This document shows, in pieces, positions 45,743 through 60,993 of a DNA stretch of 64,000 bases; within the stretch, counting starts at the first letter, position 1; every line of letters starts with the position of its first letter. Below the pieces are notes generated by a model. That model worked only from the letters and a program-made list of their open reading frames with translations, made no database searches and had not been told where the DNA came from. The position numbers and the translations under genes are program-made. The stretch comes from Caballeronia concitans (GTDB taxonomy: Bacteria > Pseudomonadota > Gammaproteobacteria > Burkholderiales > Burkholderiaceae), in the NCBI RefSeq assembly GCF_001544615.1, contig NZ_FCNV02000003.1:124001-188000 (forward strand), in the 5' to 3' direction.

Positions 45743-46185
45743 CGTTCTCAGCGAAATTCAGCGTACTCGGGCGTATTGCGCACTGGCCCGACGCACTTTT
45801 CATAGCGCGATCCACTCTCCTCTCACCGCCAGCGATGACCTTTCCCGGGTCACGCTGGCCGGCATCGATCTGCACCTCGGCACGCCCTTAATTTTGCCGT
45901 CAGGCAGGCATTCTTCTAGTATCGATACTCCGAATCAATTATTAAAGAGGCCTTACGAAAATAAGAATAATCGGGTTTAGTTTGTTACAGGTTCCATTCA
46001 GAATCGTGGAAGTTCAACTGGCTGGGACAAAGCTAAACCGAGGGCCGTGCCCCAGGCTGTCTTCGCGACAGCGTCCGGGTGGACGAGATGCGTGATCGGG
46101 CGTCAAGGGTGGTCGAAGCGGCAACTGCATGCGGCGCCACACTCCAAATGAAACCGATTTTTTAAAACTAACTGGAGTCCTAAAA
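45743..46185. promoter_or_regulatory. nrdJ end / pilus operon upstream region (443 bp)
   Basis: An imperfect hairpin at 45829-45858 (CCAGCG-a-TGACC with GGTCA-CGCTGG) may end nrdJ, though no T-run follows. From about 45890 the DNA becomes AT-rich, as expected for a pilus promoter, and holds a perfect 12-bp palindrome, AGTATCGATACT, at 45918-45929. A smaller hairpin (GCTGTC/GACAGC) lies near 46055-46075 in the likely leader. I saw no invertible-element repeats of the fimS kind. Confidence 0.45.
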
Positions 46186-46731
46186 ATGAAGAAATCCCTT
46201 GTCTCGGCACTGATGGCCGCCGTTATGGGTCTCGCCGCTGGCGGTGCGTTCGCATCCGACGGCACCATCAACTTCAATGGCGCGCTCACTGCCACCACCT
46301 GCACGATCAACGGCAACGGCACGTCGTCGAAGAACTTTACGGTCACGCTTCCGACGGTCTCGACGTCGAACCTCAAAGCTTTGGGCGACACCGCGGGCTC
46401 CACGTCCTACAACATCGCGCTGACGAACTGTGCACCGGTGACGAGCACCAGCAAGGCGTCGGTGTTCTATGAAGCGGGTACCACCGTCGATCCGGCGGAT
46501 GGCCGTCTGATGGTTGCGACCGGCGGCGCGCAGAACGTCAAGCTCGAACTGCTGAACCAGGATGCATCGCAGATCAAGGCGGGTTACTCGCGTGATCTTC
46601 AGAACTCGAAGCCGGCTGACATCTCGTCCGGCGCTGCCACGCTGAACTACATGGTCCGCTACTATGCGACCGGCGCAACGAGCGCAGGCGCGGCGAACTC
46701 GTCCGTCGTATACAGCATCGACTACCAGTAA
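46186..46731 (+). CDS. Major type 1 fimbrial pilin
   Basis: A 181-residue chaperone-usher pilin. Signal peptide MKKSLVSALMAAVMGLAAGG is cut after AFA-S. The mature domain has the two Cys (TATTCTIN and LTNCAP) that form the pilin disulphide, and ends VVYSIDYQ, with the penultimate Tyr typical of donor-strand pilins. GGAG precedes the ATG at 46186. Its place first in the operon and the hairpins after it suggest the major subunit. Confidence 0.87.
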   Translation: MKKSLVSALMAAVMGLAAGGAFASDGTINFNGALTATTCTINGNGTSSKNFTVTLPTVSTSNLKALGDTAGSTSYNIALTNCAPVTSTSKASVFYEAGTTVDPADGRLMVATGGAQNVKLELLNQDASQIKAGYSRDLQNSKPADISSGAATLNYMVRYYATGATSAGAANSSVVYSIDYQ

Positions 46732-46746
46732 GCGGTGTCGCGAAAG

Positions 46747-46799
46747 CGGAACTTCCGGTTGTGAAGTTCCGGTGCAAGAGGCGGGCGAAAGTCCGCCTC
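46747..46799 (+). other. Tandem intercistronic hairpins after the major pilin
   Basis: CGGAACTTC at 46747-46755 pairs with GAAGTTCCG at 46763-46771, and GAGGCGG at 46778-46784 with CCGCCTC at 46793-46799. Both stems are perfect. They lie between pilin stop and chaperone start with no T-run, and could stabilise pilin mRNA or attenuate read-through so that pilin exceeds chaperone and usher. Confidence 0.6.
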
Positions 46800-46838
46800 A
46801 CTTTGAATCCGTGCTTCGTTGTGCAATTCGTCGTCAAC

Positions 46839-47582
46839 ATGAAAATCTTCCACCGACTCGTCTCCGCCGCCGTGCTGCTTGTCGCCATCCAGAGCGTTGG
46901 ACAGCAGGCCCACGCGTCAGTTGTCATCGCCGGCACACGTGTCGTGTACAACCAAGGCGATTCCGAAGTCACTGTCAAGCTGACGAACAACGGCAAGCTG
47001 CCGGGGCTCACGAAGGTATGGATCGACAAGGGCGATGCCGACGCGAAGCCCGACACCATCGACGTGCCGTTCACGATCAATCCGCCGATGATGCGTATCG
47101 ATCCGGGCAAGTCGCAGACGTTGCGCATCATGTCCACCGGCGAGCCGATGCCGGGAGACAAGGAGACGGTGCTCTACCTGAACGTGCTGGAAGTGCCGCC
47201 GAAGCCTACGGGCGACGAAGCCAGCGCCAATCAGCTGCAGTTGGCGTTTCGGACGCGTATCAAGTTCTTTTATCGCCCGACGGGGCTCAAAGGGCAGGCT
47301 ACCGACGCGCCGGATGGCATCGTCTGGCATTTGAAACACGAGGGCGGGAAAAATCTGATCGTGGCGGATAACCCCACTCAGTATCACGTATCGTTCGACC
47401 GTATCGAAGTCACCGACGGCGCGCACATCGCAGCGTTCACCGACGGCGGGATGGTCGGACCGGGCGAAAGCAAAGCTTTCCCCGTGAAGGGCGAGTTGCC
47501 CGCAGCCGGCGCGAAAGTTCACTACACGGCAATCAACGACTACGGCGGACCTCAAGCCGGCGACGCGAAGCTCGCGCCCTGA
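46839..47582 (+). CDS. Periplasmic pilus assembly chaperone (FimC/PapD family)
   Basis: A 247-residue exported chaperone with signal peptide MKIFHRLVSAAVLLVAIQSV, cut after AHA. IAGTRVVYNQGDSEVTVKLTN, PPMMRIDPGKSQTLRIM and LYLNVLEVPPKP carry the conserved edge strand; FRTRIKFFYRP is the family signature with a conserved Arg and Lys. It caps pilin subunits and delivers them to the usher. No strong ribosome site precedes 46839. Confidence 0.87.
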   Translation: MKIFHRLVSAAVLLVAIQSVGQQAHASVVIAGTRVVYNQGDSEVTVKLTNNGKLPGLTKVWIDKGDADAKPDTIDVPFTINPPMMRIDPGKSQTLRIMSTGEPMPGDKETVLYLNVLEVPPKPTGDEASANQLQLAFRTRIKFFYRPTGLKGQATDAPDGIVWHLKHEGGKNLIVADNPTQYHVSFDRIEVTDGAHIAAFTDGGMVGPGESKAFPVKGELPAAGAKVHYTAINDYGGPQAGDAKLAP

Positions 47583-47679
47583 GACGCGAAATCCCGTCGC
47601 CGCGTCGTTCCATCATGGGCGGATGCGCATTCTGCGCGCCGCAATGATCCGGTAAAGATGTACTAGCTCGCATACCACG

Positions 47680-47699
47680 CAGCATGCCGGGGCATGCTG
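47680..47699 (+). other. Hairpin in the chaperone-usher gap
   Basis: CAGCATGCC at 47680-47688 and GGCATGCTG at 47691-47699 form a nearly uninterrupted 20-bp palindrome, 25 bp before the usher start. It may modulate usher translation or bind a protein. Confidence 0.5.
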
Positions 47700-47723
47700 T
47701 CTTCGAATAGTTGGTATAACTAA

Positions 47724-50315
47724 ATGAAAACGCACTCCTACAGCGCGCATATGTCCGGCATGCGATTGAAGCCGGTCACGTTGCTCGCCATCCAGGCCTT
47801 CGCCGTCATGGGCGTTAGCGGGCACGCATGGGCAGACGCTTCTCAGCAGCCGGGGCCCGTGCAGTTCAACGAGCAATTCCTGGAGTCGGGTGGCGGCGAG
47901 AAGCTGGACATCTCGCGGTTCAACAACGGACAACCTGTGTTGCCGGGGACGTATCGCGCGGATACCTACGTCAATAACGTATGGCGTGGAAAATTCGACG
48001 TCGACATTCGCGATTCCGCGCAGCATCCGGGCTCGGTGCAGGCGTGCGTCACTACCGACCTGCTCGAGCGGTTCGGCGTGGATCTGCGCAAGCTGTCGCC
48101 GGAATCCGCCGCCAAGCTGGAATCGGCTGGCAATGCGTGCCTGACGGTGGAAGATCTGATTCCGAACGCGACAGCGGTGTTCGACGGCGGCGAGCAACGT
48201 CTCGATGTCAGCATTCCGCAGATCGCCATGAGCACACGGGCGCGCGGCTATGTTGATCCTAAATACTGGGACGACGGCATCAACGCCGCCACGTTGCAAT
48301 ACAACGCGAACGTCTATCACAGCTCGGCCGGCGGGTACGCGAACGATTCCCAGTATCTCGGGCTGATCGGTGGTGTCAACGTGGGTGCCTGGCGGTTCCG
48401 GTACCAGGGCAACCTGACGCACAACAACATCACGGGGCAGCACTATCAGAACGTGCAGACGTACGCGCAGCGTGCGTTCAAGGACATCAAGAGCCAGTTC
48501 ACGGTCGGCGACACCTTTACCGATGGCGCGTTGTTCGACAGCTTCGGTGTGCGCGGCGTGACGCTTGCCACCGACGATCGTATGTACCCGGAGTCGCAGC
48601 GTGGCTATGCGCCGGTGGTGCGCGGCATCGCGAACAGCAATGCGCGGGTGCAGGTCCGGCAGAACGGCAACATCATCTACGAAACGACGGTCGCGCCCGG
48701 CGCATTCGAGATCGACGATCTGTACCCGACGGGTTACGGCGGCAACCTCGATATCATCGTGACCGAAGCCGACGGCTCGCAGCATATCTCGACCGTGCCG
48801 TACGCGGCGGCGGTGAATGCGCTGCGTCCGGGAGTGCTGCGTTACAGCGCGATGGTCGGCCAGTATCGCGATCCGACCATCGATATTCATCCGTTCGTGT
48901 CGCAGTTCACCGTGCAGCGCGGCATCAACAATCTGTTGACGCTCTACGGCGGCGTGACCGGCGCCGACATGTACTTCTCGTCGATGATCGGTGCGGCGCT
49001 GAATACGAGCGTCGGCGCGTTCGGCCTCGATGTGACAGATGCGATCGCCAGTTTCAAGGGCTACGGCACGCGTAACGGCGCCAGCGTTCGGCTCAGCTAT
49101 TCACGCCTCTTCGAACCGACGAACACGAACATTGCGATCGCGGCGTACCGCTATTCGACGAACGGCTTCTTCACGCTGCCCGACGCGATGATGATGCGGC
49201 AACTCAACGAGGATCATCAGCCGGGTTTGATGACTTCGCTTCAGAAGTCGCGCTTGCAGTTCGTGCTGAATCAGAGCCTCGGCGAGGGCGGACGATACGG
49301 CGCTATCTACGCGATGGGCTCGTTGCAGACTTACTGGAATCGCTCCGACCACGATACGCAGTTCCAGATCGGCTACAACAACAGCTGGAAACGCATGACG
49401 TATGGCGCGTCACTGGTGCGGCAGTATCAGGTGAACACGAACCGGTGGGACAACCGGATCATGCTGAACATGTCGATCCCGCTCGGCTTCGGCGCGCATG
49501 CACCGTTGTCGTCGACCAACTTCCAGCACGACACGAGCGACGGCCGCTCAACGATTCAGCAGTCCGTCACCGGGACGCTGGGCGTGGACAATGCATTCAG
49601 CTATGGCGTCAATGCGACCCTCACCGACGGCGGCCACGACGAAAGCGGCTCGGTCGGCGCAGGCGGCAACATCGGCTATGTGTCGCCGTTTGCGTTGCTC
49701 ACGGCGAACGCGAGCGTCGGGCGGAATTATTCGCAGGTCGGCGCAGGCGTGTCGGGCGGTGTGGTGGCGTGGCGCAACGGCGTCGCATTCACGCCGAACA
49801 TGGGCGACACCGTGGCCGTCATCGAGGCCAAGGACGCGGCGGGCGCCAGACTGGCGAGCGGCGCGGGCTTGCGTGTCGATCGCTGGGGACATGCGGTCGT
49901 ATCCGGCATCCAGCCGTATTCGAACAATGACATCGAACTCGATCCGAAGGGCCTGCCGATCAACGTTTCGCTGAAGTCCACTGTGCAGCGCACCGCGCCT
50001 ACGGCTGGAGCAGTCGTGCGCGTGCAGTTCGAAACGGAGAACCTCGGTAAGCCGGCCGTTATGCGGGTCATGCAAGCCGATGGCAAGCCCTTGCCGTTCG
50101 GTGCCGAAGTGTTCGATGGCGAAAGCCACACGGTGGGCACGGTGGCGCAAGGCAGCCGCATCATCGCGACAGGCCTCAAGGCCGATGCCGGCACGTTGAA
50201 CGTGAAATGGGGCGATGCACCCGAGCAGCGGTGCGCGGTGCGGTATCAACTACCGCCGAGTGTGGACGCCTCGAAGCCGAATTCGATCAGCGTTTCGGAC
50301 GCGGTCTGTCAGTGA
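47724..50315 (+). CDS. Outer-membrane fimbrial usher (FimD family)
   Basis: An 863-residue usher. The signal sequence ends near HAWA-D. Then come the N-terminal domain (VQFNEQFLESGGGEKLDISRF), a 24-strand barrel with middle plug (RGIANSNARVQVRQNGNIIYETTVAPGAFEIDDLYPTGYGGNLDI in pattern) and C-terminal domains (PFGAEVFDGE, CAVRYQLP). Length is normal. The N-terminus could begin at 47724 or at the in-frame ATG 47751; neither has a strong ribosome site. Confidence 0.87.
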   Translation: MKTHSYSAHMSGMRLKPVTLLAIQAFAVMGVSGHAWADASQQPGPVQFNEQFLESGGGEKLDISRFNNGQPVLPGTYRADTYVNNVWRGKFDVDIRDSAQHPGSVQACVTTDLLERFGVDLRKLSPESAAKLESAGNACLTVEDLIPNATAVFDGGEQRLDVSIPQIAMSTRARGYVDPKYWDDGINAATLQYNANVYHSSAGGYANDSQYLGLIGGVNVGAWRFRYQGNLTHNNITGQHYQNVQTYAQRAFKDIKSQFTVGDTFTDGALFDSFGVRGVTLATDDRMYPESQRGYAPVVRGIANSNARVQVRQNGNIIYETTVAPGAFEIDDLYPTGYGGNLDIIVTEADGSQHISTVPYAAAVNALRPGVLRYSAMVGQYRDPTIDIHPFVSQFTVQRGINNLLTLYGGVTGADMYFSSMIGAALNTSVGAFGLDVTDAIASFKGYGTRNGASVRLSYSRLFEPTNTNIAIAAYRYSTNGFFTLPDAMMMRQLNEDHQPGLMTSLQKSRLQFVLNQSLGEGGRYGAIYAMGSLQTYWNRSDHDTQFQIGYNNSWKRMTYGASLVRQYQVNTNRWDNRIMLNMSIPLGFGAHAPLSSTNFQHDTSDGRSTIQQSVTGTLGVDNAFSYGVNATLTDGGHDESGSVGAGGNIGYVSPFALLTANASVGRNYSQVGAGVSGGVVAWRNGVAFTPNMGDTVAVIEAKDAAGARLASGAGLRVDRWGHAVVSGIQPYSNNDIELDPKGLPINVSLKSTVQRTAPTAGAVVRVQFETENLGKPAVMRVMQADGKPLPFGAEVFDGESHTVGTVAQGSRIIATGLKADAGTLNVKWGDAPEQRCAVRYQLPPSVDASKPNSISVSDAVCQ

Positions 50316-50351
50316 ACGGCCATCAAAGCTAATTCATCGGGAAAGAAACAA

Positions 50352-51434
50352 ATGAATAACATGAACCGGCTTGCACTTGCGCTCTTGCGGCGCGTGATGT
50401 GCTGGCTTGCGATGCTGATCTTCGTGCCTTCTTCCGCATGGGCGACCGCGAGCTGCACGGCGAATTACACATCCTTCACACTAACGCTGCCCCCCACCGT
50501 GGCGGTGGCGCGGGACTTGCCTAATGGCTCGGTTCTGACGACATGGTCGTTGTCGCCGTCGAAGAACGATTACTGGACCTGCATCGTTTCGGGAAGCGTC
50601 TATAACGGAACCGACTTCGAAACGGCGGGCATCACCACAGCGGGGCCAACGACCTATAACGCGACGTACCAGGGCGTTGCGTTTCAAGTCTATCCGACGA
50701 ACGTTCCCGGCGTAGGCATTGCGATGGGCGGCTATACCATCCCGGACAGTACGCCCTATGGTCCTCAGACATTTCGCACCATGGGCCGTCAATGGAATAG
50801 GAATGGCACCATCCAGAATGGGGGCCAGTTGATCGTTGCATTGGTCAAGACCGGTGACATCACGCCGGGCACAGCGACAGGCATGATCGCACAGGCGTTC
50901 TCGTGGCAAACGCTGACGCCGCCGCCTGCGGGGAATGTGCCATCAGCGGGCATCATCAATTTCTATATCACGCCGGTTGTAATCACCGTGCTCACCTGCC
51001 AGACGCCTGACGTCAACGTTCCAATGGGCATCCAGGGACCAGCGGATCTGCCGAACGTGGGGCCCGCTCCGAGCAAAGTCGCATCGTTCAACCTGAGTCT
51101 GAACAACTGTCCAGGCGGCTTGCCGGTAGCAGGGACATCCGCAGGCCAGATTCACAACATTCAGTATCAGATCGATCCATCGAACGGTCAGGTGCCCGGC
51201 TTCAGCAACGTTGCGGCGTTAAGCGGTAGCCCGAGTGCGGGCGGCGTGGGCGTCCAACTTTATGACAACACTGGGGCCGTGTTTCCGTTCGGTACCCTTC
51301 GGACGCTGAGCGGCTTCGATAGTGCAAACGGCGGCAGCTATGCCATACCAATGACGGCGCGATATTACCGCACCGGCACGCTGACCGCCGGACCCGCAAA
51401 CTCAACCATGACGATGACCGTCTCATACCAGTGA
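50352..51434 (+). CDS. Two-domain fimbrial tip adhesin
   Basis: A 360-residue exported protein. Signal region to about residue 32 (PSSAWA-TASC). Residues about 33-210 form an N-terminal receptor-binding-like domain with no obvious match to FimH, and 215-360 a pilin domain (LTCQTPDVNVPMG, LNNCPGG with paired Cys, ending TMTVSYQ). This two-domain form is the tip adhesin of a type 1-like pilus. The receptor is unknown. Confidence 0.8.
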   Translation: MNNMNRLALALLRRVMCWLAMLIFVPSSAWATASCTANYTSFTLTLPPTVAVARDLPNGSVLTTWSLSPSKNDYWTCIVSGSVYNGTDFETAGITTAGPTTYNATYQGVAFQVYPTNVPGVGIAMGGYTIPDSTPYGPQTFRTMGRQWNRNGTIQNGGQLIVALVKTGDITPGTATGMIAQAFSWQTLTPPPAGNVPSAGIINFYITPVVITVLTCQTPDVNVPMGIQGPADLPNVGPAPSKVASFNLSLNNCPGGLPVAGTSAGQIHNIQYQIDPSNGQVPGFSNVAALSGSPSAGGVGVQLYDNTGAVFPFGTLRTLSGFDSANGGSYAIPMTARYYRTGTLTAGPANSTMTMTVSYQ

Positions 51435-51509
51435 TTGCTGCGGTGGCAGTCTGCGCGAGGGGCGGACTGCTATCAAATTGGGACCACCACGAAACAAAGG
51501 AGCAGAAAC

Positions 51510-52028
51510 ATGAAAAGGCTAATAAGCGGGCTGGCGGTGCTTGGGCTCATGAGCGCGGGCCCGGCATTCGCCGTCGATGCCACGCTGAATTTCACCGGCA
51601 CGATCATATTGCCTACGTGCACCGTCGATTCGGGTTCCGTCTCGCAGACGATTGATCTAAAGACGGCCAAGACAACGGACTTCCTTTCAGTGAATTCGAC
51701 GAACAATGCAACGCCGTTCAGTCTGTTGTTGAAGAGCTGCGCGGTCAACACGAACGTTTCGATGACCATTTACGGAACCGTCGACACCGTGCAGAGCGTG
51801 CTCAAGAACACGGGGACAGCGAGTCAGGTTGGCGTGCAATTGTTGAAAGCGGTCAATGTCGGCGACACGACGGGAACGCCGTTCCCGCTCAACACGCAGA
51901 CGACTATCGGTGCCGTGGATGCCACCAATACCATGACCATTCCGATGGTCGCTCAGTTCTACCGGCTCGGAACCATGACTGGCGGCACGGTTACCGCAAC
52001 GGCGACGGTGAACTTCGGATACAACTGA
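51510..52028 (+). CDS. Second fimbrial pilin subunit
   Basis: A 172-residue pilin with signal MKRLISGLAVLGLMSAGPAF, cut after FA-V. Paired Cys occur in LPTCTVD and LKSCAVN, and the tail is TATVNFGYN with the penultimate Tyr. AAAGGAG precedes the ATG at 51510. Being last after the adhesin, it may be a minor/adaptor subunit or an alternative major pilin. Confidence 0.83.
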   Translation: MKRLISGLAVLGLMSAGPAFAVDATLNFTGTIILPTCTVDSGSVSQTIDLKTAKTTDFLSVNSTNNATPFSLLLKSCAVNTNVSMTIYGTVDTVQSVLKNTGTASQVGVQLLKAVNVGDTTGTPFPLNTQTTIGAVDATNTMTIPMVAQFYRLGTMTGGTVTATATVNFGYN

Positions 52029-52153
52029 GTCCCGGCAATACATCCGAGAATTCCGATTGAATTCGGCTCGGGCTATTGGATAGGATGACGAAGCGAACAA
52101 ACAAAACCGTTCGTATTTGTTTGATTTATCTCAAGGATTTGGCAGAGCAGAAG

Positions 52154-52294
52154 ATGAAAAAGATCGACCGTAATGCATTGAAATATTCCCAACTGGCGGG
52201 CGGAGCTGCGAAGGCTTCATCGAGCAGTTCGACGTCAACGACTGTGAAGATCTCCGGGTCTTTCGTCCAGGTCAACAACAACCAGAAACAATAA
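52154..52294 (+). CDS. Double-glycine leader peptide precursor 1 (46 aa)
   Basis: A tiny precursor: leader MKKIDRNALKYSQLAGG (17 residues, ending Gly-Gly) and a 29-residue core, AAKASSSSSTSTTVKISGSF then VQVNNNQKQ. Hydrophobic leader residues Ile4, Leu9 and Leu14 are spaced by five, with Leu14 at position -4, fitting recognition by a C39 peptidase. The leader matches that of the second precursor at 52726. The core is Ser/Thr-rich, then beta-prone. A terminator follows 39 bp later. An upstream extension of the frame (to 52076) is rejected because the conserved leader starts here. Confidence 0.72.
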   Translation: MKKIDRNALKYSQLAGGAAKASSSSSTSTTVKISGSFVQVNNNQKQ

Positions 52295-52333
52295 TACTTC
52301 GCCGCTGTTGGTTTGACCTGACTCGTCAATCAG

Positions 52334-52356
52334 GGCCGCCTCAGTCCAAGGCGGCC
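52334..52356 (+). terminator. Terminator after peptide precursor 1
   Basis: GGCCGCCT at 52334-52341 and AGGCGGCC at 52349-52356 make a perfect 8-bp stem with loop CAGTCCA, followed by TTTCCGTTTT. It separates precursor 1 from the second precursor and the export genes, so precursor 1 can be made in excess. Confidence 0.82.
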
Positions 52357-52725
52357 TTTCCGTTTTGATCGATAAGATCGTCGGCAAAGGCCCGTTTCAT
52401 CGGGAACGGTGACTGAGTAGGGTGCAGGCGCATAAGCTTGTCAAGCGACAGATGAGGCAGGTGCATGCTTGTTTACTTGCCGATGTTTTTCCGGTTCTCG
52501 CGCGAGCCTTTCGCTGCCAGTTTGATTTGAATGACCAAGCGCTACTGCCAACCGTCTCTAATTTAGGAGTTTTCGCGGTTTACCGGCACCGGGAAAGAAC
52601 CTAACATCCTTCCCGTCTTGAGGTATTCAACTTAAGACGGACTCCTGAGTTAATCAGGAAAGTGACCGCGTCGGCTCATGACGAGCTGCGCAGTTTTTAT
52701 TGAAAGAAACATCGGGAAAATCAAA
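52357..52725. promoter_or_regulatory. Intergenic region upstream of peptide precursor 2
   Basis: This 369-bp stretch has lower GC than its surroundings. It holds an inverted repeat, CCGTCTT at 52613-52619 with AAGACGG at 52634-52640, and a small CCTGA/TCAGG hairpin near 52643-52657. These could mark a regulated promoter for precursor 2. The open frame from GTG 52422 has no leader-like or family sequence and is not called. Confidence 0.4.
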
Positions 52726-52842
52726 ATGCAAAAGATCGAACGCACTGCTTTGGCTCAGGCATCGCTGGCTGGTGGTTGCCACAAGGCTAGCAGCCAGTCT
52801 TCGTCGACCACGACCGTCATCATTAACCTGAAGCAAGGTTAA
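52726..52842 (+). CDS. Double-glycine leader peptide precursor 2 (38 aa)
   Basis: A 38-codon gene, below usual length cut-offs. Leader MQKIERTALAQASLAGG has 17 residues like precursor 1 and shares Lys3, Ile4, Arg6, Ala8, Leu9, Leu14 and AGG. The 21-residue core is CHKASSQSSSTTTVIINLKQ plus G. Cleavage after GG would expose an N-terminal Cys, which precursor 1 lacks. The shared leader, shared KASS...TT(T)V core pattern and position before a C39 exporter argue for a paired-peptide system. Confidence 0.7.
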   Translation: MQKIERTALAQASLAGGCHKASSQSSSTTTVIINLKQG

Positions 52843-53151
52843 GGCGTTTTGTCATTAGCCGGATTCAGCGCTGGGTCCGGTCAATGAAACTGCCAAGGAG
52901 GATCGCGTAGCGGCATAAGCGTTGATTGTTAAGGCGATTTTGTCGGTTACGCGGTCCTCTCAGTTCAGGGCAGCTTCCCACGTGAATCCACCTTGAACTG
53001 AATGATGAAGATGATCGAGTCTCGATGCCGAGCGGCTCAGGCGCCCCAATGCTCACGCATCGATCGATTGCTCTAAGAAGTCGGTGAGTAAGTGCCGGAT
53101 CCACCGTAGTCCGGAAGACTCATCGATGTCCTGCCATTTCCACGAGAATCA
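52843..53151. other. Intergenic region between precursor 2 and the acyltransferase
   Basis: 309 bp without a convincing gene. AAGGAGG occurs near 52894-52900 with no start codon at usable distance. It may be decayed coding sequence or a leader for the export genes. No clear terminator separates precursor 2 from the downstream genes. Confidence 0.35.
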
Positions 53152-54087
53152 ATGCCCGCTCTGCGTTCCGCGCTAAAAAAGTGGCTCGCGCTGCGAAAGC
53201 ATCGCGTGCGGCGTAGCTTCTACGGTCGAATTCCAATGAGTTCGGTGGAAACACTCGCTCGTTGTGCTTGGCGCACGCGCAGCATATATGACGCAACATG
53301 TAGAGCAAGCGGTCGAGTGCGATCGGAAATTGGCCGCGACGTCCTGAACCTGCCTCAAGCGAGAGCGCGTCGTGCGTGCGTGGGCGCGTATATCGAGAAG
53401 CTGATCGATCAGCGCATCTACTTCGGCCGCGACATTCGAAAGCATGAAGCGTGGCCTGACCTCGAACAAATCGCGCGAACGCTTACAGCCGAAGTCGAAA
53501 AGCTGAGAAGGGAAGCGCCCGGACGGCCGGTGTTCATTTCCCCGTTCCACTTCGTATCGCAGTACGCGAACATTTATATCGTCGAGCGCGTGGCCGCGTT
53601 GCTCGGCTTGCAGTCCATGTCGGTGGTGTCCGGCGTGCCGAGGAATCAATATGGCGACGACCACGCGCTCATTCCCGGCATCAAGGTGCTCTACACCTAT
53701 GGCGACACGAATCGCAATGGGCTCGGCGTGCGCGTCGCGCGCTCGCTGAAACGCGATGGCGTCGCCGTGCTCTTCTCCGATGTCCCGCCTTTCACCATGC
53801 ATCGCTATCCGATGGAAACGGTCGAGGTATCGATGTTCGGCAAGAGCGCGCGCATCCATAACGGCGTGTTTCGCGTGGGCGAGACCTTCGGCGCCGTCCT
53901 CCTGCCGTTTTACCTGCGCTTCTCGCGCGGACACTTCGAGGCGCGGCTCTTCGATGCTCTCCCGCTCGACGCGGCCGAGTCGCCGCAGCGGCTCGCCGGT
54001 TATATCGAGACGGCGCTTCTCGACAATTATGAACAGTGGCTTCCGGCCGGGCATCCCGCAATGTACGCATTCGCCCCGTCGAAATAG
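53152..54087 (+). CDS. LpxL/HtrB-like acyltransferase in the peptide-export locus
   Basis: A 311-residue protein resembling the lysophospholipid/lipid A acyltransferase fold: ISPFHFVSQYANIY, then VAVLFSDVPPFTMHRYP, VEVSMFGKSARIHNGVFRVG and GAVLLPFYLRFSRGHFEARL line up with LpxL-family blocks. The usual H-x4-D/E catalytic motif is altered: His133 is present, but position 138 is Tyr. There is no clear N-terminal membrane anchor. It lies between the peptide genes and the HlyD adaptor (31-bp gap), suggesting it acts on the peptides, the exporter or a local lipid. The start is uncertain; no good ribosome site. Confidence 0.6.
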   Translation: MPALRSALKKWLALRKHRVRRSFYGRIPMSSVETLARCAWRTRSIYDATCRASGRVRSEIGRDVLNLPQARARRACVGAYIEKLIDQRIYFGRDIRKHEAWPDLEQIARTLTAEVEKLRREAPGRPVFISPFHFVSQYANIYIVERVAALLGLQSMSVVSGVPRNQYGDDHALIPGIKVLYTYGDTNRNGLGVRVARSLKRDGVAVLFSDVPPFTMHRYPMETVEVSMFGKSARIHNGVFRVGETFGAVLLPFYLRFSRGHFEARLFDALPLDAAESPQRLAGYIETALLDNYEQWLPAGHPAMYAFAPSK

Positions 54088-54118
54088 CCGAATGCAACAG
54101 CCGACCACGTAAGACTTC

Positions 54119-55348
54119 ATGCAACCGACCGATCTTCCCCAATTCAGGGACGTGCCATGGCGCTGGATCGCCTATGCCACGTCCGTGTTCACCATCGCGG
54201 CGCTGGCCTTCGGCTTCGTCCACCAGATCGAGCTCAAGCAGGACGTCTCGGGCGAGATCGTGTCGCCGTCGGAGGTGAAGATTCAGGGCTTGAACGGGAT
54301 GGTGTCCGCGATCTATGCGCGGCCGTCGGAACATGTCGAACCGGGAACGCCGTTGTTTCGCTTGCAGCGCGATTTTTCGCTCACGACAGACGGCCTGCGC
54401 CGGCAAGTGTTCGACGAGAAGGTGCGCGACGATCAGATCCATGCCATCGACGAGCAATACAACGAGCGTCGCGCGCAATTGAACGCGCAGCGCGAGACCG
54501 CGCGTGTCACCGAAGCCAGCCGTCGCGCGGAACTTGGGTCGCTCGATGCGCAGATCGCGCAAAACGGTCAGTTGGTGGGGGAGTTCGAACAACGGCTCGC
54601 GCGGCTCAACGCGGTGTCGGAGTATGTGACTGCGGACAAGGTGGAGCAGGCGCGCGCGGATATCCACCAAGGCAAGGTGACGGTCGCGCAGGGCGTGGCG
54701 CGGCGACAGCAATTGGCCGGCGAGATCGGCGCATCCAATGGCACGCAAGCCGATCTGGAAGCACAACTGCGCGAACTCGATGCCCGTCGCGCACGCGACA
54801 TTCAGGACGTCCGCGCGCGCTTCGAACGCGAACGCCAGGACGCGACCGTCTCCGCGCCGAAGGGCGGCGTGGTCACGTTTTCGGGGCTGGTCGCAGGCCG
54901 CATGCTCGCAGCGGGCGATGTCGCCATGGTCATTTCCACGAAAGACAGCGTCCCATTGCGCGCGGCGTTGAGTATCCCGTCGCGGCGACGCGGCTTCGTC
55001 AGAGAAGGCCAGATCGTGCGGCTCAAATTCGACGCCTTCCCCTACGCCAAGTTTGGCACCTACGAGGCGCGCATCGATTCGATATCCGGCACCACCGTGC
55101 TGCCCGCGAGCCCGCTCGGCTTGCCCGGCACGCCCGGTGCGCCCGATCCGTCCGAGCAGACAGAAAGCGCCAAGGAATCCGAGGGCGATTACCTGGCGTG
55201 GGCCACGCTGCGCGGCAACACGTTCGAATTCGAGGGCCAGCATTTCAAGATCCTGCCCGGAATGCGGGCGACGGCGAGCATCGTCGTCGAACGAAGGACG
55301 CTCGCCGAATGGGTGCTGGCGCCGTTGTATCGAATGCTAAGAGGTTGA
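54119..55348 (+). CDS. HlyD-family membrane fusion protein
   Basis: A 409-residue periplasmic adaptor. One membrane segment (WRWIAYATSVFTIAALAFGF, near 15-34) is followed by a lipoyl half (GEIVSPSEVKIQGLNGMVSA), long coiled-coil helices (about 90-240) and the second half (TVSAPKGGVVTFSG). It has the colicin V/CvaA-type layout. It joins the inner-membrane ABC exporter to a TolC-type channel. The next gene starts one base after its stop. Confidence 0.85.
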   Translation: MQPTDLPQFRDVPWRWIAYATSVFTIAALAFGFVHQIELKQDVSGEIVSPSEVKIQGLNGMVSAIYARPSEHVEPGTPLFRLQRDFSLTTDGLRRQVFDEKVRDDQIHAIDEQYNERRAQLNAQRETARVTEASRRAELGSLDAQIAQNGQLVGEFEQRLARLNAVSEYVTADKVEQARADIHQGKVTVAQGVARRQQLAGEIGASNGTQADLEAQLRELDARRARDIQDVRARFERERQDATVSAPKGGVVTFSGLVAGRMLAAGDVAMVISTKDSVPLRAALSIPSRRRGFVREGQIVRLKFDAFPYAKFGTYEARIDSISGTTVLPASPLGLPGTPGAPDPSEQTESAKESEGDYLAWATLRGNTFEFEGQHFKILPGMRATASIVVERRTLAEWVLAPLYRMLRG

Positions 55349-55349
55349 T

Positions 55350-57470
55350 GTGCGGATCATCTATCAGAACGAAGTCGCCGAATGCGGCTATGCATGTTTG
55401 GCGATGGTGCTCTCGCATCTCGGGCGGGCCACGGAAGTGCGGGAACTGTCGTCGTATAAGCCGATCTCGGCGAATGGCCTCTCGCTGATGGACTTGTACG
55501 ATGTCGCCGTCGATTTCGGTCTGGAAGTGCAGGCGTATCGTTTCGACGCGTCCGATCTGTCGGCGGTCAAGAAGGGCTCCATTCTCCATTTCGGCGGCGC
55601 GCACTTCGTCGTGTTCGAGAAGGCGGGGCATGGTTACGTGCGCGTGATCGATCCCGCGACCGGCCGTCGTCGCGTCTCGATGGACACGTTCCGCTCAGCC
55701 GTGTCCGGCTTTCTGCTCGAATTCGCGCCGACGCCGCAGATGCCGCGCATTCGCGCCAAATCGCGCGTGCCGGCTGCGCTCAAGCGCGTACGCGCGTTGA
55801 GTCCGCAGTTGAAGGCGCACATCGGCAAGATATTGTTCGTCGCGCTCGGCAGTCAGTTCGCTATTCTCGCGATGCCGTATTTCGGCAATCTCGTGCTGGA
55901 TTACGTGGTCGCGGCCGACAACCGCAATCTGCTGAACGTGCTCGTGGTCACGTTCGCGAGCATCTTCATCCTCGGCGCGTTGAGCGAGTTCGTGCAGAAG
56001 TACCTCACGGAATTGCTCTACAACCTCACGCAGATCAATTCCACCGAAGGCTTGTTGCGTCACTTGTTGCGCAATCCGATGTCGTGGTTCGAGAAGCGTC
56101 ACGTCGGCGACGTGTTCGCCCGCGTGAAAGCGCAGGACGAAATCAGCGTGTTCGCCACGCGCACCAGCGTGTCGCTGTTCGTCGATCTGACGGTAGGCAT
56201 CATCGCGCTCATTCTGATGCTGATTCAAAGCCGCCAGCTCGCGGGCGTCGCGTTGCTCGTTTTTCTCGTGTATATCGGGCTCGCCATCAGCATGTTCGCC
56301 GCCATGCGCGACAACCATGCGCTCGTGCTCGAAACGTCCGCACGCTGCGACGACTCGCTGATCGAAACCATACGCGCCGCATCGCTCTTGAAGCTCGCGC
56401 AAGGCGAGACGCGGCGCACGGCCATCTACATGACCATCTACAAGGCGTACGCGGCGGCGCTGCTGAAGAGCAGCCGCCTCACGTGTACGCGCGACGGGCT
56501 GCTCAAGCTCGTCACTTACGCCGATACCATCATCATCACGTGGCTTGCGGCGCGTCTGATGCTCGGCGGCAGGGTGTCGGTGGGCGTGTTCTATTCGTTT
56601 CTCATCTATAAGTCGCTGATGTCCGAGAGGCTCGCGAGTGCCATCAACGCCACGTTCCAGTACTTCATGCTGAGCGTGCCGACCGCACGCGTGGACGATA
56701 TCGTCGAAAGCGAGAACGAACGCTATACGCCGCTCGCCGATACGCAGCGCGCGACGGAAGTGCGCGTGTTCGATCACATCGACGTGCGCGACGTGACGTT
56801 CAGCTACGGCATTTCGGATCAACCCGTGCTGAAGAATGCGAGCTTCCAGATTCGCAAGGGCGACAAGTTCGCGATCACCGGTCCTTCGGGCAGCGGCAAA
56901 TCCACGCTGTTCAAGCTGCTGTCGGCGGCGGAACCGCTGCAGGAAGGGCATATCGCGCTGAACGGCATCGCATGGCCCAATCTGGCTGTCGATGAAATCC
57001 GCCGGCATCAGGCGCACATGCGGCAAGGCGACATCATCCTGCACGGATCGATTGCGGATAACGTCACGTTGTTCGCCGCGCAGACCGACGAGGACCGCAT
57101 CCACAAGCTGCTCGATCAGGTCGGCTTGCTCGACGACATCATGCGCTTGCCGATGCGCACGCGCACCGTCATCAGCGACACCATCGCGAACATCTCGGCG
57201 GGGCAGCGTCAGCGGCTTCTGCTTGCGCGCGCGCTGTATCAGCAACGTGAATTGCTGCTGCTCGACGAGCCGACCTCCAATCTCGATCCCGCTTCCGTGC
57301 GGAACATCGCAGGGTTGCTGCAAAGCCTGGATCGTACGGTCGTGGTGATCACGCACGACATGTCGCTGGCTTCGTCGTTCGACGTGCGTTACCGATTCGA
57401 AGGCGGCGGACTCGTGCGCGACCGCATCGGGCAGACCGACACCACGCCGGACGAAGCGCTCCATGCTTAA
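55350..57470 (+). CDS. Peptidase-containing ABC exporter (C39 leader peptidase, CvaB-like)
   Basis: A 706-residue exporter. Residues 1-130 are a C39 peptidase with Gln6, catalytic Cys12 (AECGYAC), His85 (GGAHFVVFE) and Asp101 (VIDPATG) all present, so it should cut after double-glycine. Six membrane segments (about 165-440) and an ABC domain follow (Walker A GPSGSGKST, ISAGQRQRLLLARAL, LLLLDEPTSNLDP). The start is GTG at 55350 after AAGAGG. It would cleave and export both precursors above. ABC signature ISAGQ is slightly variant. Confidence 0.88.
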   Translation: MRIIYQNEVAECGYACLAMVLSHLGRATEVRELSSYKPISANGLSLMDLYDVAVDFGLEVQAYRFDASDLSAVKKGSILHFGGAHFVVFEKAGHGYVRVIDPATGRRRVSMDTFRSAVSGFLLEFAPTPQMPRIRAKSRVPAALKRVRALSPQLKAHIGKILFVALGSQFAILAMPYFGNLVLDYVVAADNRNLLNVLVVTFASIFILGALSEFVQKYLTELLYNLTQINSTEGLLRHLLRNPMSWFEKRHVGDVFARVKAQDEISVFATRTSVSLFVDLTVGIIALILMLIQSRQLAGVALLVFLVYIGLAISMFAAMRDNHALVLETSARCDDSLIETIRAASLLKLAQGETRRTAIYMTIYKAYAAALLKSSRLTCTRDGLLKLVTYADTIIITWLAARLMLGGRVSVGVFYSFLIYKSLMSERLASAINATFQYFMLSVPTARVDDIVESENERYTPLADTQRATEVRVFDHIDVRDVTFSYGISDQPVLKNASFQIRKGDKFAITGPSGSGKSTLFKLLSAAEPLQEGHIALNGIAWPNLAVDEIRRHQAHMRQGDIILHGSIADNVTLFAAQTDEDRIHKLLDQVGLLDDIMRLPMRTRTVISDTIANISAGQRQRLLLARALYQQRELLLLDEPTSNLDPASVRNIAGLLQSLDRTVVVITHDMSLASSFDVRYRFEGGGLVRDRIGQTDTTPDEALHA

Positions 57471-58793
57471 GCGAAGCCTCTCGATATGCGCGCTGGCGAG
57501 TGCGCTCGTGTTCGTGGATGCAGCCCGCGCCGACGATCTCATCGCCATCGTTCAGCAGGCGCTCGATCACGACGCCGAACTCGGTCAGGCACGCGCCGGC
57601 TACGAGGCCGCGAAGCAGGCGGTGCCCATCGCGCGCGCGGCGCTGTTGCCGCAGATCGTCGGTGGCTGGGGCGCGCATACAACCGTATCGACATGGACGG
57701 CTTTCCGCGTCAGAAGTATTGGCAGAACGGCTGGATGGTGACCGTATCGCAGCCGCTTTTCGACTGGAGCAAGTGGACTGCTTACAGGCAGGCGGATTTC
57801 GTCGTGGCGCAGGGCGCGGTGGATTTCGCAGGCGCGCAACAGGCGTCGATTCTGCGAGCGGTGCGGGCGTATTTCGACGAACTCGCCGCCGAGGATGAAG
57901 TCAAGCGTGCCGCCGACTATCTCGCCGCGATACAGGCGCAGGTCGATCAGGTCCGCCGCAAGCGCGCGGCGGGCGAGGCGACGGTCATCGACCAATACGA
58001 AGCCGATACCGCGCTCGAACAGGCGCAGCTTCAGCAAGTGGACGCGGCGCAGGAATTGGCCGTGAAGCGTCGCGCCGTCGAGCAAGTCACCGGGCGGCCG
58101 TTCGCGGCGCTGGCGCAGTTGCCGCCTGAGATGGCGTTGCCGAAGCTCGCCGAGGGCGAGGAGAGCTGGATAGAGCAGGCGAAGACGCGCGGTTATGAAG
58201 TGCAGTCGAAGCAGCTCGGCCTGGAAATCGCCAGGTTCGATACGTCGAAGGCGCGCGCGGCGAATTATCCGGTCGTCAGCGTCACCGGCAGCTACACACC
58301 CGCGGGCGCGGCCTCGGGCTACGCGCGCCCGACGACGACCACGACCGGCATGTTGCAGATCCAGATTCCGCTCTTTTCCGGTGGCGAAATTCAGGCGCGC
58401 GTCGGGCAGTCGCTTGCGCTGGAGGACAAGGCGAAGCAGGGCTATCTGCTGGCATCGACACAGGCCGAGGCGTCCGCTCGCGACAACTACGCGAAGTACA
58501 TCCGCGAGCAGCAGAAGACCGGTTCGCTGAGGCATCTCGTCGAAAGCGCACGCGAAACCTTGCAAGCCACGCAAGTCGGATTCAAAGTGGGCAGCCGCGC
58601 GAGCAGCGACGTGCTGCGCGCGCTCGATACCTTGTACACCGCGCGCCGCGATCTGTTGCGTTCGCGCTATGCGGCGCTCGTCGCCTTCCTGCAACTCAAA
58701 GCCGATGTCGCCACGTTGAGCGAGGAGGACATCGCCGAGATGAGCGCGAAGCTGTGTTGCAAATTGCAGATGGCCAAGGCGGACGCGCGCTGA
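57463..58793 (+). pseudogene. TolC-family outer-membrane protein, frameshifted
   Basis: The gene starts at 57463 overlapping the exporter stop by 8 nt, with signal peptide MLKRSLSICALASALVFVDA. The frame then fails near 57668-57671 (GGGG): the start frame ends at 57741, while the rest of the protein continues in another frame from AYNRIDMDGFPRQKYW to KADAR at 58793. Adding one G to the run restores GGWGRAYNRIDMDGF. The restored protein of about 443 residues has normal TolC repeats. This is either a real inactivating indel or a sequencing error in a G run. Confidence 0.8.
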
Positions 58794-58799
58794 AGCGCA

Positions 58800-59399
58800 T
58801 TACTCCGTACTCGCGCCGCGCCGATGTGTGGAAAGCGCACGCACCAGGCGGGCGAGCGCTTTCAGCGCATCGGCGGGGGCATCGGCGAATTGCGCGGCGA
58901 CGATCGCGCCATCGACGGCAAGCGCGAGCGCCTGCGCGTCGGCCTTCGCGGTGCGCGACGCCGGCATCAGCGCACGAATGGCGGCGGTCATGTCGCGCTT
59001 GTGCCGCCGCGCGATATCCACCGCTTGCGGCAGCGTGCCGCCGACTTCCACCACCGAATTAATGAACGCGCAACCGCGATAAGTCTCGCCGCCGAACCAC
59101 TCGGCAAGCGCCGGCACCAGCGCGGAAAGCGTGCCGCCGTGACGCGAGAGCGCGTCGCGGAACCATGCCATCCAGTTCTCGTGCCGAAACTCTAGGAACG
59201 CGACGATCAAATCATCCTTGCTCGGAAAATAGCGATAGAACGTCTTCTTCGCGACACCCGATTCCGCAATCACGCGGTCGATGCCGGTCGCGCGAATGCC
59301 GTCGCGATAAAACAGGTCGTGCGCCGTGCGCAGAATGCGGGCATCGGGGGAAAGCTCCGCCGCATTCGCCGCATCCGCCGAATAGTCGATGATATTCAT
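58800..59399 (-). CDS. TetR/AcrR family regulator
   Basis: A 199-residue repressor. Residues about 18-65 are the TetR helix-turn-helix (ILRTAHDLFYRDGIRATGID, then GVAKKTFYRYFPSKDDLIVAF); the rest is an all-helical ligand domain containing YRGCAFINSVVEVGG. It is divergent from the DUF1348 gene, with two operator-like repeats between, so it should control that gene and itself. Convergent with the TolC gene. Confidence 0.88.
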   Translation of the reverse strand: MNIIDYSADAANAAELSPDARILRTAHDLFYRDGIRATGIDRVIAESGVAKKTFYRYFPSKDDLIVAFLEFRHENWMAWFRDALSRHGGTLSALVPALAEWFGGETYRGCAFINSVVEVGGTLPQAVDIARRHKRDMTAAIRALMPASRTAKADAQALALAVDGAIVAAQFADAPADALKALARLVRALSTHRRGASTE

Positions 59400-59409
59400 G
59401 CCGCCGATT

Positions 59410-59427
59410 GTAGACAGGTTCGTCTAC
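59410..59427. promoter_or_regulatory. TetR operator-like inverted repeat 1
   Basis: GTAGACAGGTTCGTCTAC: half-sites GTAGAC and GTCTAC, 18 bp in all, next to the TetR start. A second copy with the same half-sites lies 38 bp further on. Together they cover both promoters. Confidence 0.75.
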
Positions 59428-59447
59428 CTGCGCTAGAGTGCGTGCAG

Positions 59448-59465
59448 GTAGACAGACCTGTCTAC
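59448..59465. promoter_or_regulatory. TetR operator-like inverted repeat 2
   Basis: GTAGACAGACCTGTCTAC, a nearly perfect 18-bp palindrome, 17 bp before the DUF1348 start. It has the same half-sites as the repeat at 59410-59427, so the regulator probably overlaps the target's promoter and leader. Confidence 0.78.
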
Positions 59466-59482
59466 ATCAACCAGGAGCCGAC

Positions 59483-59950
59483 ATGGAAAGCAGACCGCCT
59501 CTTCCGCCGTTCGATGCAGACACCGCCGCACAGAAGGTTCGCCTGGCCGAAGACGGCTGGAACACGCGCGATCCGAAGCGCGTCGCACTGGCTTATAGCG
59601 AGGACACGCGCTGGCGCAATCGCGCGGAGTTCGTCACGGGCCGCGCGCAAGTCGAAGCGTTCTTGCAGCGCAAGTGGGTGCGCGAGCTGGACTATCGGCT
59701 CATCAAGGAGCTGTGGGGTTTTACCGGCAATCGCATCGCGGTGCGATTCGCGTATGAATGGCACGACGATTCGGGCAACTGGTATCGCAGCTATGGCAAC
59801 GAGAACTGGCAGTTCAACGAAGCGGGGCTGATGACGCATCGTCACGCGTCCATCAACGATCTGCCGATCAAGGAGTCCGACCGCAAGTATCATTGGCCGC
59901 TCGGCCGCCGGCCCGACGATCATCCCGGCCTGAGCGACCTCGGGCTGTAG
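59483..59950 (+). CDS. NTF2-like protein, DUF1348 family
   Basis: A 155-residue protein. [25 protein letters not shown] and [41 protein letters not shown] in pattern, then [16 protein letters not shown], are the DUF1348 (SnoaL-like) hallmarks. AGGAG precedes the ATG at 59483. The target of the adjacent TetR. Role unknown; small-molecule binding is likely from the fold. Confidence 0.85.
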
Positions 59951-59970
59951 GCAAAAAGCGCATCACACCA

Positions 59971-60993
59971 TCACATATCGCGCCGCCGCCGGAAGGCCCA
60001 CCATCCGGCGAGCACGGTGAAGCTCGCGACAATCAGCACGAGCAACCAGAAGCCGTGATGATTTTCCGCGAGCGGTATGCCGCCCACGTTCATGCCGAAG
60101 AAGCCGGCCACGATGTTGATCGGAAGCGCGAGCACCGTGACGAGCGTCAGCGTGAAAAGCGTGCGGTTGCTTTGCTCGTCCATCCGCGTCGCGATTTCTT
60201 CCTGCAACAGCTTGATGCGTTCTACGAGGCCTGCCAGATCGTTCAACACAAGGGAGAACTCTTCGGTCGCGTCGCGCAAATCCTGAATGTCCTGCGCATG
60301 AAGCCAGCGCGGCGGCCGCGCGAGCAGGCGGAATACGGAGCCGGGCTCGGGCGCGAGCAGACGCTGAAGCCGCACGAGCACGCGCCGCAGCGCGCCGAGA
60401 TCGGAGCGCGTTCGCGATGAATGCGTCGACAGAAAGCGATCCTCGATGCCGTCCACTTCCACGCTGGTTCGCCGCACGATCTCTACGAGGAGATCGGCCT
60501 GATCGCGCAGCAGATGCGCGAGCAATTCCGCAGGCGATCGAAACAGCTCGCCGCGCCGCACCGATTCACGCAGCGAATCCACCGAACGCAGCGGCTTCAT
60601 GCGCGCCGTGATGAGCAGCTTCTGACGCGTGTACACCCAGAGCGTCGCGATTTCCGAGGGCGTCAGTTCGAAGTTGAACATCACGTCGTTGATGACGGCG
60701 AAGAGCGCGCCTTCCTGATGCTCGATGCGCGTCGAGTGCGAGCCTTCATGCAGCGTGTCGAAGAATTCGTCGGGCACGCCGAGGCGCGTGCGCATCCAGC
60801 GCTCGCATGCGCTGTTGGCAAGATCGAAGTGCAGCCAGATGAACTCCTTCACGGTATCGTCGCGAGCGAGCCAGGCGCTGGCCGCTTCGGCATCGATTGG
60901 CTCGCCCGGCTGGTCGACGCGGAAGCGAAAGCCGCAGACGAGGCCGGTGAAGTCGGAACCATAGGGCGGTCGTTGCAGGGTAGCGGGATTCAT
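59971..60993 (-). CDS. CorA-family transporter, ZntB-like
   Basis: A 340-residue membrane protein with a large N-terminal cytoplasmic domain (about 1-275) and two C-terminal membrane segments. GFFGMNVGGIP holds the Gly-Met-Asn selectivity motif between them. Sequence in the N-domain (WLHFDLANSACERWM, DEFFDTLHEGSHSTRIE) and length fit the ZntB branch, which moves Zn2+ rather than Mg2+, though ion specificity cannot be read off directly. Confidence 0.82.
   Translation of the reverse strand: MNPATLQRPPYGSDFTGLVCGFRFRVDQPGEPIDAEAASAWLARDDTVKEFIWLHFDLANSACERWMRTRLGVPDEFFDTLHEGSHSTRIEHQEGALFAVINDVMFNFELTPSEIATLWVYTRQKLLITARMKPLRSVDSLRESVRRGELFRSPAELLAHLLRDQADLLVEIVRRTSVEVDGIEDRFLSTHSSRTRSDLGALRRVLVRLQRLLAPEPGSVFRLLARPPRWLHAQDIQDLRDATEEFSLVLNDLAGLVERIKLLQEEIATRMDEQSNRTLFTLTLVTVLALPINIVAGFFGMNVGGIPLAENHHGFWLLVLIVASFTVLAGWWAFRRRRDM

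Follow-up and report, generated by a model that had tools for sequence, protein, structure and literature searches.

A Caballeronia locus for double-glycine peptide export with an accompanying LpxM/PatA-fold acyltransferase: a possible ribosomal lipopeptide system

A 64,000-nucleotide stretch of Caballeronia concitans (assembly GCF_001544615.1, contig NZ_FCNV02000003.1, positions 124,001 to 188,000, forward strand; hereafter the window) carries a compact locus in which two short double-glycine precursors precede genes for a predicted acyltransferase, an HlyD-family adaptor, an ATP-binding cassette (ABC) exporter with a C39 peptidase domain and a TolC-family channel. We propose that this locus may encode a ribosomal lipopeptide export system, a reading whose chance, taken as a whole, falls slightly short of even. 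The core trait found family-wide is a lysine at +2 or +3 after Gly-Gly, not a serine/threonine run, and lipid modification thereby gains a candidate site. The genes concerned are as follows (window coordinates).

52154..52294, + strand: precursor A, 46 amino acids (aa), leader 17, core 29 (AAKASSSSSTSTTVKISGSFVQVNNNQKQ); from translation and same-place counterparts in Caballeronia relatives
52726..52842, + strand: precursor B, 38 aa, leader 17, core 21 (CHKASSQSSSTTTVIINLKQG); from translation and counterparts in relatives
53152..54087, + strand: acyltransferase of predicted LpxM/PatA fold, 311 aa; His133 retained, usual acid substituted (H-F-V-S-Q-Y)
54119..55348, + strand: HlyD-family adaptor, 409 aa; TIGR01843 E 1.7e-24 (under the curated cut-off), PF13437 (HlyD_3) E 4.7e-12
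55350..57470, + strand: ABC exporter with N-terminal C39 peptidase, 706 aa; PF03412 (Peptidase_C39) E 1.6e-24, PF00664, PF00005 (ABC_tran)
57463..58793, + strand: TolC-family outer-membrane channel in two reading frames; TIGR01844 on each piece searched apart, Pfam OEP

The last four genes are co-directional; the first two gaps measure 31 bp and 1 bp, and the final pair overlaps by 8 bp. A first-pass annotation, made from the letters alone, had described the two precursors as sharing a 17-residue double-glycine leader, and the translations bear this out (M-(K/Q)-K-I-(D/E)-R-x-A-L ... L-A-G-G). It had also staked its prediction on conservation of that leader in homologues. Relatives of the locus were gathered via the acyltransferase, and 62 remained for counting after removal of nine duplicates (L029, L032, L034, L035, L037-L041). 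Like precursors were found in 61 of the 62, 58 by leader pattern and three more by looser searches; L061, a degraded locus, was the only one in which neither approach found any. Set against 0.51 pattern matches per locus in 355 shuffled loci, the leader is more than a chance occurrence. In each of the 79 leaders of seventeen residues, R occupies -12, L occupies -9 and GG fills -2/-1, residues partly preset by the pattern, which required GG and allowed R/K/H/Q at -12 and L/M/I/V at -9.

Peptide cores were compared in a curated set of 104 distinct peptides, 82 from the loci and 22 from elsewhere. Chance leader matches were dropped by eye before counting; rows dropped include one core of more than 100 aa in L201 and one open reading frame (ORF) each in L195 and L206. 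Three precursors (L093, L096, L159) were added by hand, and the GA-type peptides of L086 were excluded. Lysine occupies +3 in 98 of the 104 and +2 in three, compared with a lysine frequency of 4.4% at +4 to +20, and it is often preceded by one or two cysteines; the first-pass annotation makes no reference to this lysine. The Fisher values for the comparison take no account of kinship. The profile behind the 22 non-locus peptides includes the lysine position and hence leans towards it, whereas the leader pattern used in the loci ignores lysine. The run of Ser/Thr followed by an alternating beta-prone tail, which the first-pass annotation had emphasized, holds for Caballeronia but not as a general trait: at least three alternating hydrophobics occur in 49 of 57 Caballeronia cores (Ser/Thr/Asn 46%) and in 6 of 47 others, where a Cys-Cys start (42 of 47) and 15% proline are found. 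Overall, 55 of 104 cores have the alternation, against 6.5 (standard deviation (sd) 2.4) after shuffling. Ser/Thr-richness was accordingly rejected as the defining trait. Cysteine as the only acyl site is also unlikely, with 57 of 104 cores beginning with Cys (14/57 in Caballeronia, 43/47 elsewhere) and none in the core of precursor A.

Export and leader cleavage are very probable. The first-pass reading of an intact C39 domain agrees with the Pfam match and with residues Q6, C12, H85 and D101, counted by eye. The Q..C motif is present in 57 of 61 exporter matches, and the remaining four end short of the motif region. By sequence, the nearest solved chain is the bacteriocin transporter 4ry2, and competence-pheromone exporters (ComA) are also among the solved relatives. 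PADLOC gave eight matches for the exporter, those that could be placed being ATPase-type, and none for the precursors, acyltransferase or HlyD.

The acyltransferase had been called LpxL-like. Its fold, as predicted, is indeed LPLAT of LpxL/LpxM/PatA type, with LpxM and PatA the closest solved folds, and the profile link to the LpxL-type family spans the C-terminal third; neither a Pfam match nor the LpxL catalytic acid accompanies it. The window protein matches no Pfam family and does not reach the PF03279 gathering score, and PF03279 matches occur in 3 of 36 relatives at E up to 10 (best 0.0065). A search of its profile against solved structures by sequence gave none at E up to 1. Among the 36 sequences, H133 and Q137 are invariant and Y138 nearly so. 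The enzyme shares a predicted fold with LpxL, LpxM and PatA but differs from them in having the acid of H-x4-D/E replaced, in lying under the Pfam cut-off and in being encoded with a peptide exporter.

A consistent association of the acyltransferase with the export genes is observed. By construction it is present in all 62 loci, HlyD and ABC genes each in 61 and TolC in 58, and it stands first in 57 and last in 6 of 63 loci (L159 added). Protein distances of the module genes correlate at r 0.930-0.949 (56 loci). Independent support comes from searches of the same 398 family genomes with other queries: the exporter (E at most 1e-160) is found in 47, of which 45 have the acyltransferase, and in the exceptional genomes either the exporter match is partial (G056, G057) or the acyltransferase contains a stop (G018). 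The leader profile matches at E < 1e-3 in 49 genomes, 44 of them acyltransferase carriers, and in four further genomes only at E 0.006-0.008. These comparisons support the view that the acyltransferase belongs with the peptides.

Within the genus, 16 of 58 genomes have the acyltransferase, the window genome included, and within the family it occurs in 50 of the 398 (46 strong, 4 weak at E 1e-10 to 1e-13). When named genomes were scanned, 55 loci came up, spread over Caballeronia, Paraburkholderia, Burkholderia, Cupriavidus, Rhodanobacter and Dyella. A phylum-wide set of 398 genomes yielded four matches, two in the family and one strong and one weak in gamma-proteobacteria; in the family of the strong one, 2 of 99 genomes carry the gene. 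Viral contigs contained no relative, and the sole match in plasmid records is a 1.3-Mb Caballeronia replicon (Caballeronia sp. M1242, 83%). Two loci are decayed, with stops in the acyltransferase and, in L061, a broken exporter; their hosts, Candidatus Paraburkholderia kirkii (L061) and Candidatus Burkholderia humilis (L095), are leaf-nodule symbionts.

The count of two precursors proved too low, since the window genome has six. Four lie outside the locus, three in tandem ~379 kb away on the same contig and one on another contig, and all four carry x-A-K after Gly-Gly.

L194 4066-4566, - strand, and L195 4155-4346, + strand: extra precursors of the window genome, same leader family

Similar orphan precursors were seen in other Caballeronia genomes (L196-L200, L203-L205, L207-L209). 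Probably, one exporter serves precursor genes elsewhere in the genome too.

In the mechanism that we propose, short precursors would be made in the cytosol, where the LpxM/PatA-fold enzyme would transfer a fatty-acyl chain to the conserved lysine two or three residues past the double glycine, with a neighboring cysteine as an alternative site. A side chain is the likelier acceptor because the N-terminus of the core becomes free only once C39 has cut. As expected from their families, the C39 domain would then cut off the leader, and the peptide would exit via HlyD and TolC. The variable tail, beta-prone in Caballeronia and often Cys/Pro-rich elsewhere, may be exposed, with the acyl end serving to anchor or assemble the peptide, and the products would act on the cell surface or in the matrix. 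We regard acylation of the peptides as somewhat more probable than its absence, and give the conserved lysine an even chance of being the site. A surface or matrix role is put forward tentatively; the usher gene also points to it, since in 19 of the 62 loci, which are not independent of one another, one lies upstream in the same orientation. A more far-reaching version seems unlikely: a new class of ribosomal lipopeptides in which an acid-less LpxM-fold enzyme acylates the leader-adjacent lysine, the products being peptide amphiphiles (acyl anchor, Ser/Thr spacer and, in Caballeronia, beta-strand tail) that form short surface fibers beside fimbriae and come from a genome-wide precursor pool sharing one exporter.

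Several observations weigh against lipopeptide export as we propose it. The LpxL acid is replaced (Gln137, Tyr138), so acyltransferase activity is not assured. The conserved lysine could serve cleavage or transport, and three of the 104 peptides (L074, L078, L204) have no lysine at +2/+3. Because beta tails are rare outside Caballeronia, fibers cannot be the family-wide role, and in 43 of the 62 loci no usher gene was seen nearby. In the window's own genome TolC is split, its first ~70 residues and the remainder lying in different frames, so that of the predicted TolC-type channel the family assignment stands and the single open frame does not. Elsewhere TolC is a single open frame (51 of 54 loci with both parts found; the exceptions are the window, L030 and L095), and from the sequence a mutation and an assembly error cannot be told apart. 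Finally, nostolysamide activity did not need acylation, according to the part of PMC13060382 available.

LpxM and PatA act on envelope lipids. Being the closest solved folds, they favor a different reading, which we consider rather improbable: that the acyltransferase spares the peptides and remodels an envelope lipid, for self-protection or for a surface suited to the peptides, while the lysine serves leader docking, cleavage or exporter passage. A second, distant system also favors it, and its peptides, having no Lys at +3, weigh against a general lysine rule.

L152 6101-9562; L153 6770-10135; L154 6607-9962; L155 4981-8341 (- strand); L160 7408-10809: second acyltransferase and C39-ABC system

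The weak acyltransferase matches that make up this system come from four genomes of a different genus in the family and from one gamma-proteobacterium. The acyltransferase lies directly upstream of a C39-ABC exporter that is 27-30% identical to the window type, and double-glycine peptides sit ahead of these genes. Its profile probability is 99.1% to the window-type family and 97.1% to LpxL, the gamma-proteobacterial member exceeds the PF03279 cut-off, and the motif is H-x-x-S-D in the three aligned. Against lipid remodeling, the window genome already has two PF03279 acyltransferases of its own. In addition, the best 19-residue hydrophobicity mean within the N-terminal 75 residues is 0.94 (0.16-1.85, n=36), lower than the 1.74 (1.07-2.75, n=13) of LpxL homologues, which would fit a soluble acceptor weakly, since the ranges overlap. 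The L153 and L154 cores have the endings NTTVVNVYV and NTTIVNVYV, which resemble Caballeronia tails such as NTTVVIYI, a hint that the combination of acyl chain and beta tail may have arisen more than once. L160 also has MacA- and MacB-like genes, under the curated cut-offs.

The peptides might instead be small microcin-like inhibitors, lipidated or not, with the acyltransferase boosting potency or shielding the producer; this too we judge to have a low probability. Class II microcins of the colicin V type share the double-glycine leader on a short precursor, the C39 ABC exporter, the adaptor and TolC (PMC9746304, as far as its available text goes), and several diverse cores per genome would fit weapons. 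However, those microcins have an adjacent immunity protein of 51-216 aa, often with a membrane helix, and a mature size of about 5-10 kDa, as given in the available parts of PMC9746304 and PMC10233263. Here the cores are mostly 20-30 residues (median 23-24 over the 104 peptides; ~2-3 kDa by length for the window's 29 and 21 aa), as unlike classical microcins as the first-pass annotation had held, and they come with a dedicated acyltransferase and a Lys after the cleavage site. Between the last precursor and the gene that follows, the median distance is 130 bp. No family-wide immunity gene was found in the 58 loci examined, in 54 of which 163 ORFs of 51-216 aa lie near the module, the membrane-like ones varying by locus; this is offset by a small, lineage-limited protein of ~88 aa whose start looks like a signal sequence and whose gene precedes the precursor by ~1-1.5 kb in 23 of the 62 loci (e.g. 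L057 7455, L080 7374). A role as lipopeptide pheromones is very improbable: the peptides are small, exported and present in several variants, and ComA is among the exporter's relatives, but low-complexity cores are unusual for specific ligands, and no receptor or two-component gene recurs, only the four module genes exceeding 40 of 62 loci (in flanks extending no further than 9-10 kb; no other ORF cluster is in more than 40, and those above 23 are overlapping or antisense frames as judged by position and strand).

The order of events that we propose for lipopeptide export follows the logic of HlyC-HlyA-HlyB-HlyD, in which lysine acylation in the cytosol precedes type 1 export; there the substrate is a large protein with a C-terminal signal, whereas here there are tiny leader peptides, a C39 domain with catalytic residues and an enzyme of another fold. 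Selidamides (phaeornamide, kamptornamide, nostolysamides) are likewise ribosomal peptides, with a fatty acyl group attached to the side chain of Lys or Orn (core Lys1 for nostolysamides), according to the available parts of PMC13060382 and PMC9505594. In our family acylation is predicted, with a candidate Lys in 101 of 104 peptides. The enzyme is GNAT in selidamides and of LpxM/PatA fold here, the leader is NHLP/Nif11-type there and short double-glycine here, and no lanthionine synthetase gene was seen in our loci. In Synechococcus elongatus, the small double-glycine proteins EbfG1-4 are released via the C39-peptidase exporter PteB, EbfG1-3 are amyloid-prone, and a biofilm role is described; the export logic is alike by description, not by sequence comparison, mature EbfG is 6-7 kDa, and the available portions of PMC4997328 and PMC9981879 mention no acyltransferase. 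An earlier screen covered 79 Gram-negative genomes for double-glycine peptides (mentioned in the accessible part of PMC9746304). A Caballeronia competition study found no clear antagonism in culture and, in the text available, reports no such system (PMC12632191). The first-pass annotation knew of no named system with this set of genes, and searches of an open-licence library agree: judged by title and abstract start, none of the papers they brought up describes the combination, which does not prove absence.

If the proposal is true, the enzyme fold known from lipid A synthesis has been co-opted to attach lipid to ribosomal peptides that are then secreted, by a route to lipopeptides separate from the selidamide GNAT enzymes. 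Many plant- and insect-associated Burkholderiaceae would thereby have a surface or matrix component (some carriers are Burkholderia-related bacteria from soil or symbioses), one easily overlooked because of its short genes, all below 80 codons. Since the lysine is conserved, a single mass measurement could put the central claim to the test.

Around the precursors and upstream of them, further features were noted.

52332..52358, + strand: terminator-like hairpin 3' of precursor A, 10 pairs and a T-rich tail; consensus scan, weak
52562..52588, + strand: conserved block 5' of precursor B; alignment of seven Caballeronia loci, kept with changes
46129..52028, + strand: chaperone-usher fimbrial genes (fimbrin, chaperone, usher, adhesin, fimbrin); ORFs, PF00419, MrkD-like domain, usher PF00577

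The terminator scan is weak, with 3 sites in the region and 1.8 (sd 1.3) expected from shuffles; the promoter scan of the region gave 1 site (1.2 expected by chance), and an Rfam scan of 46000-60000 gave no match at gathering score. The block at 52562-52588 is a possible regulatory element; a 10-base pattern taken from it had no match in 11 orphan-precursor stretches. The fimbrial genes, which lie upstream of the precursors, are perhaps functionally linked to the peptide locus. Usher matches number 0-6 per genome in 15 genomes, some being fragments of one gene. Mimicry of fimbrial donor strands by the beta tails was left aside: it was considered for one orphan precursor, which gave no significant PDB match (best E 0.26). 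In G016 (L156 5617-7026) the front of the usher gene adjoins the rear part of hlyD, and the acyltransferase is 710 kb distant; in G057 (L158 11022-7400) the usher lies next to the exporter gene. Fimbrial and exporter genes have thus been rearranged in two distinct ways.

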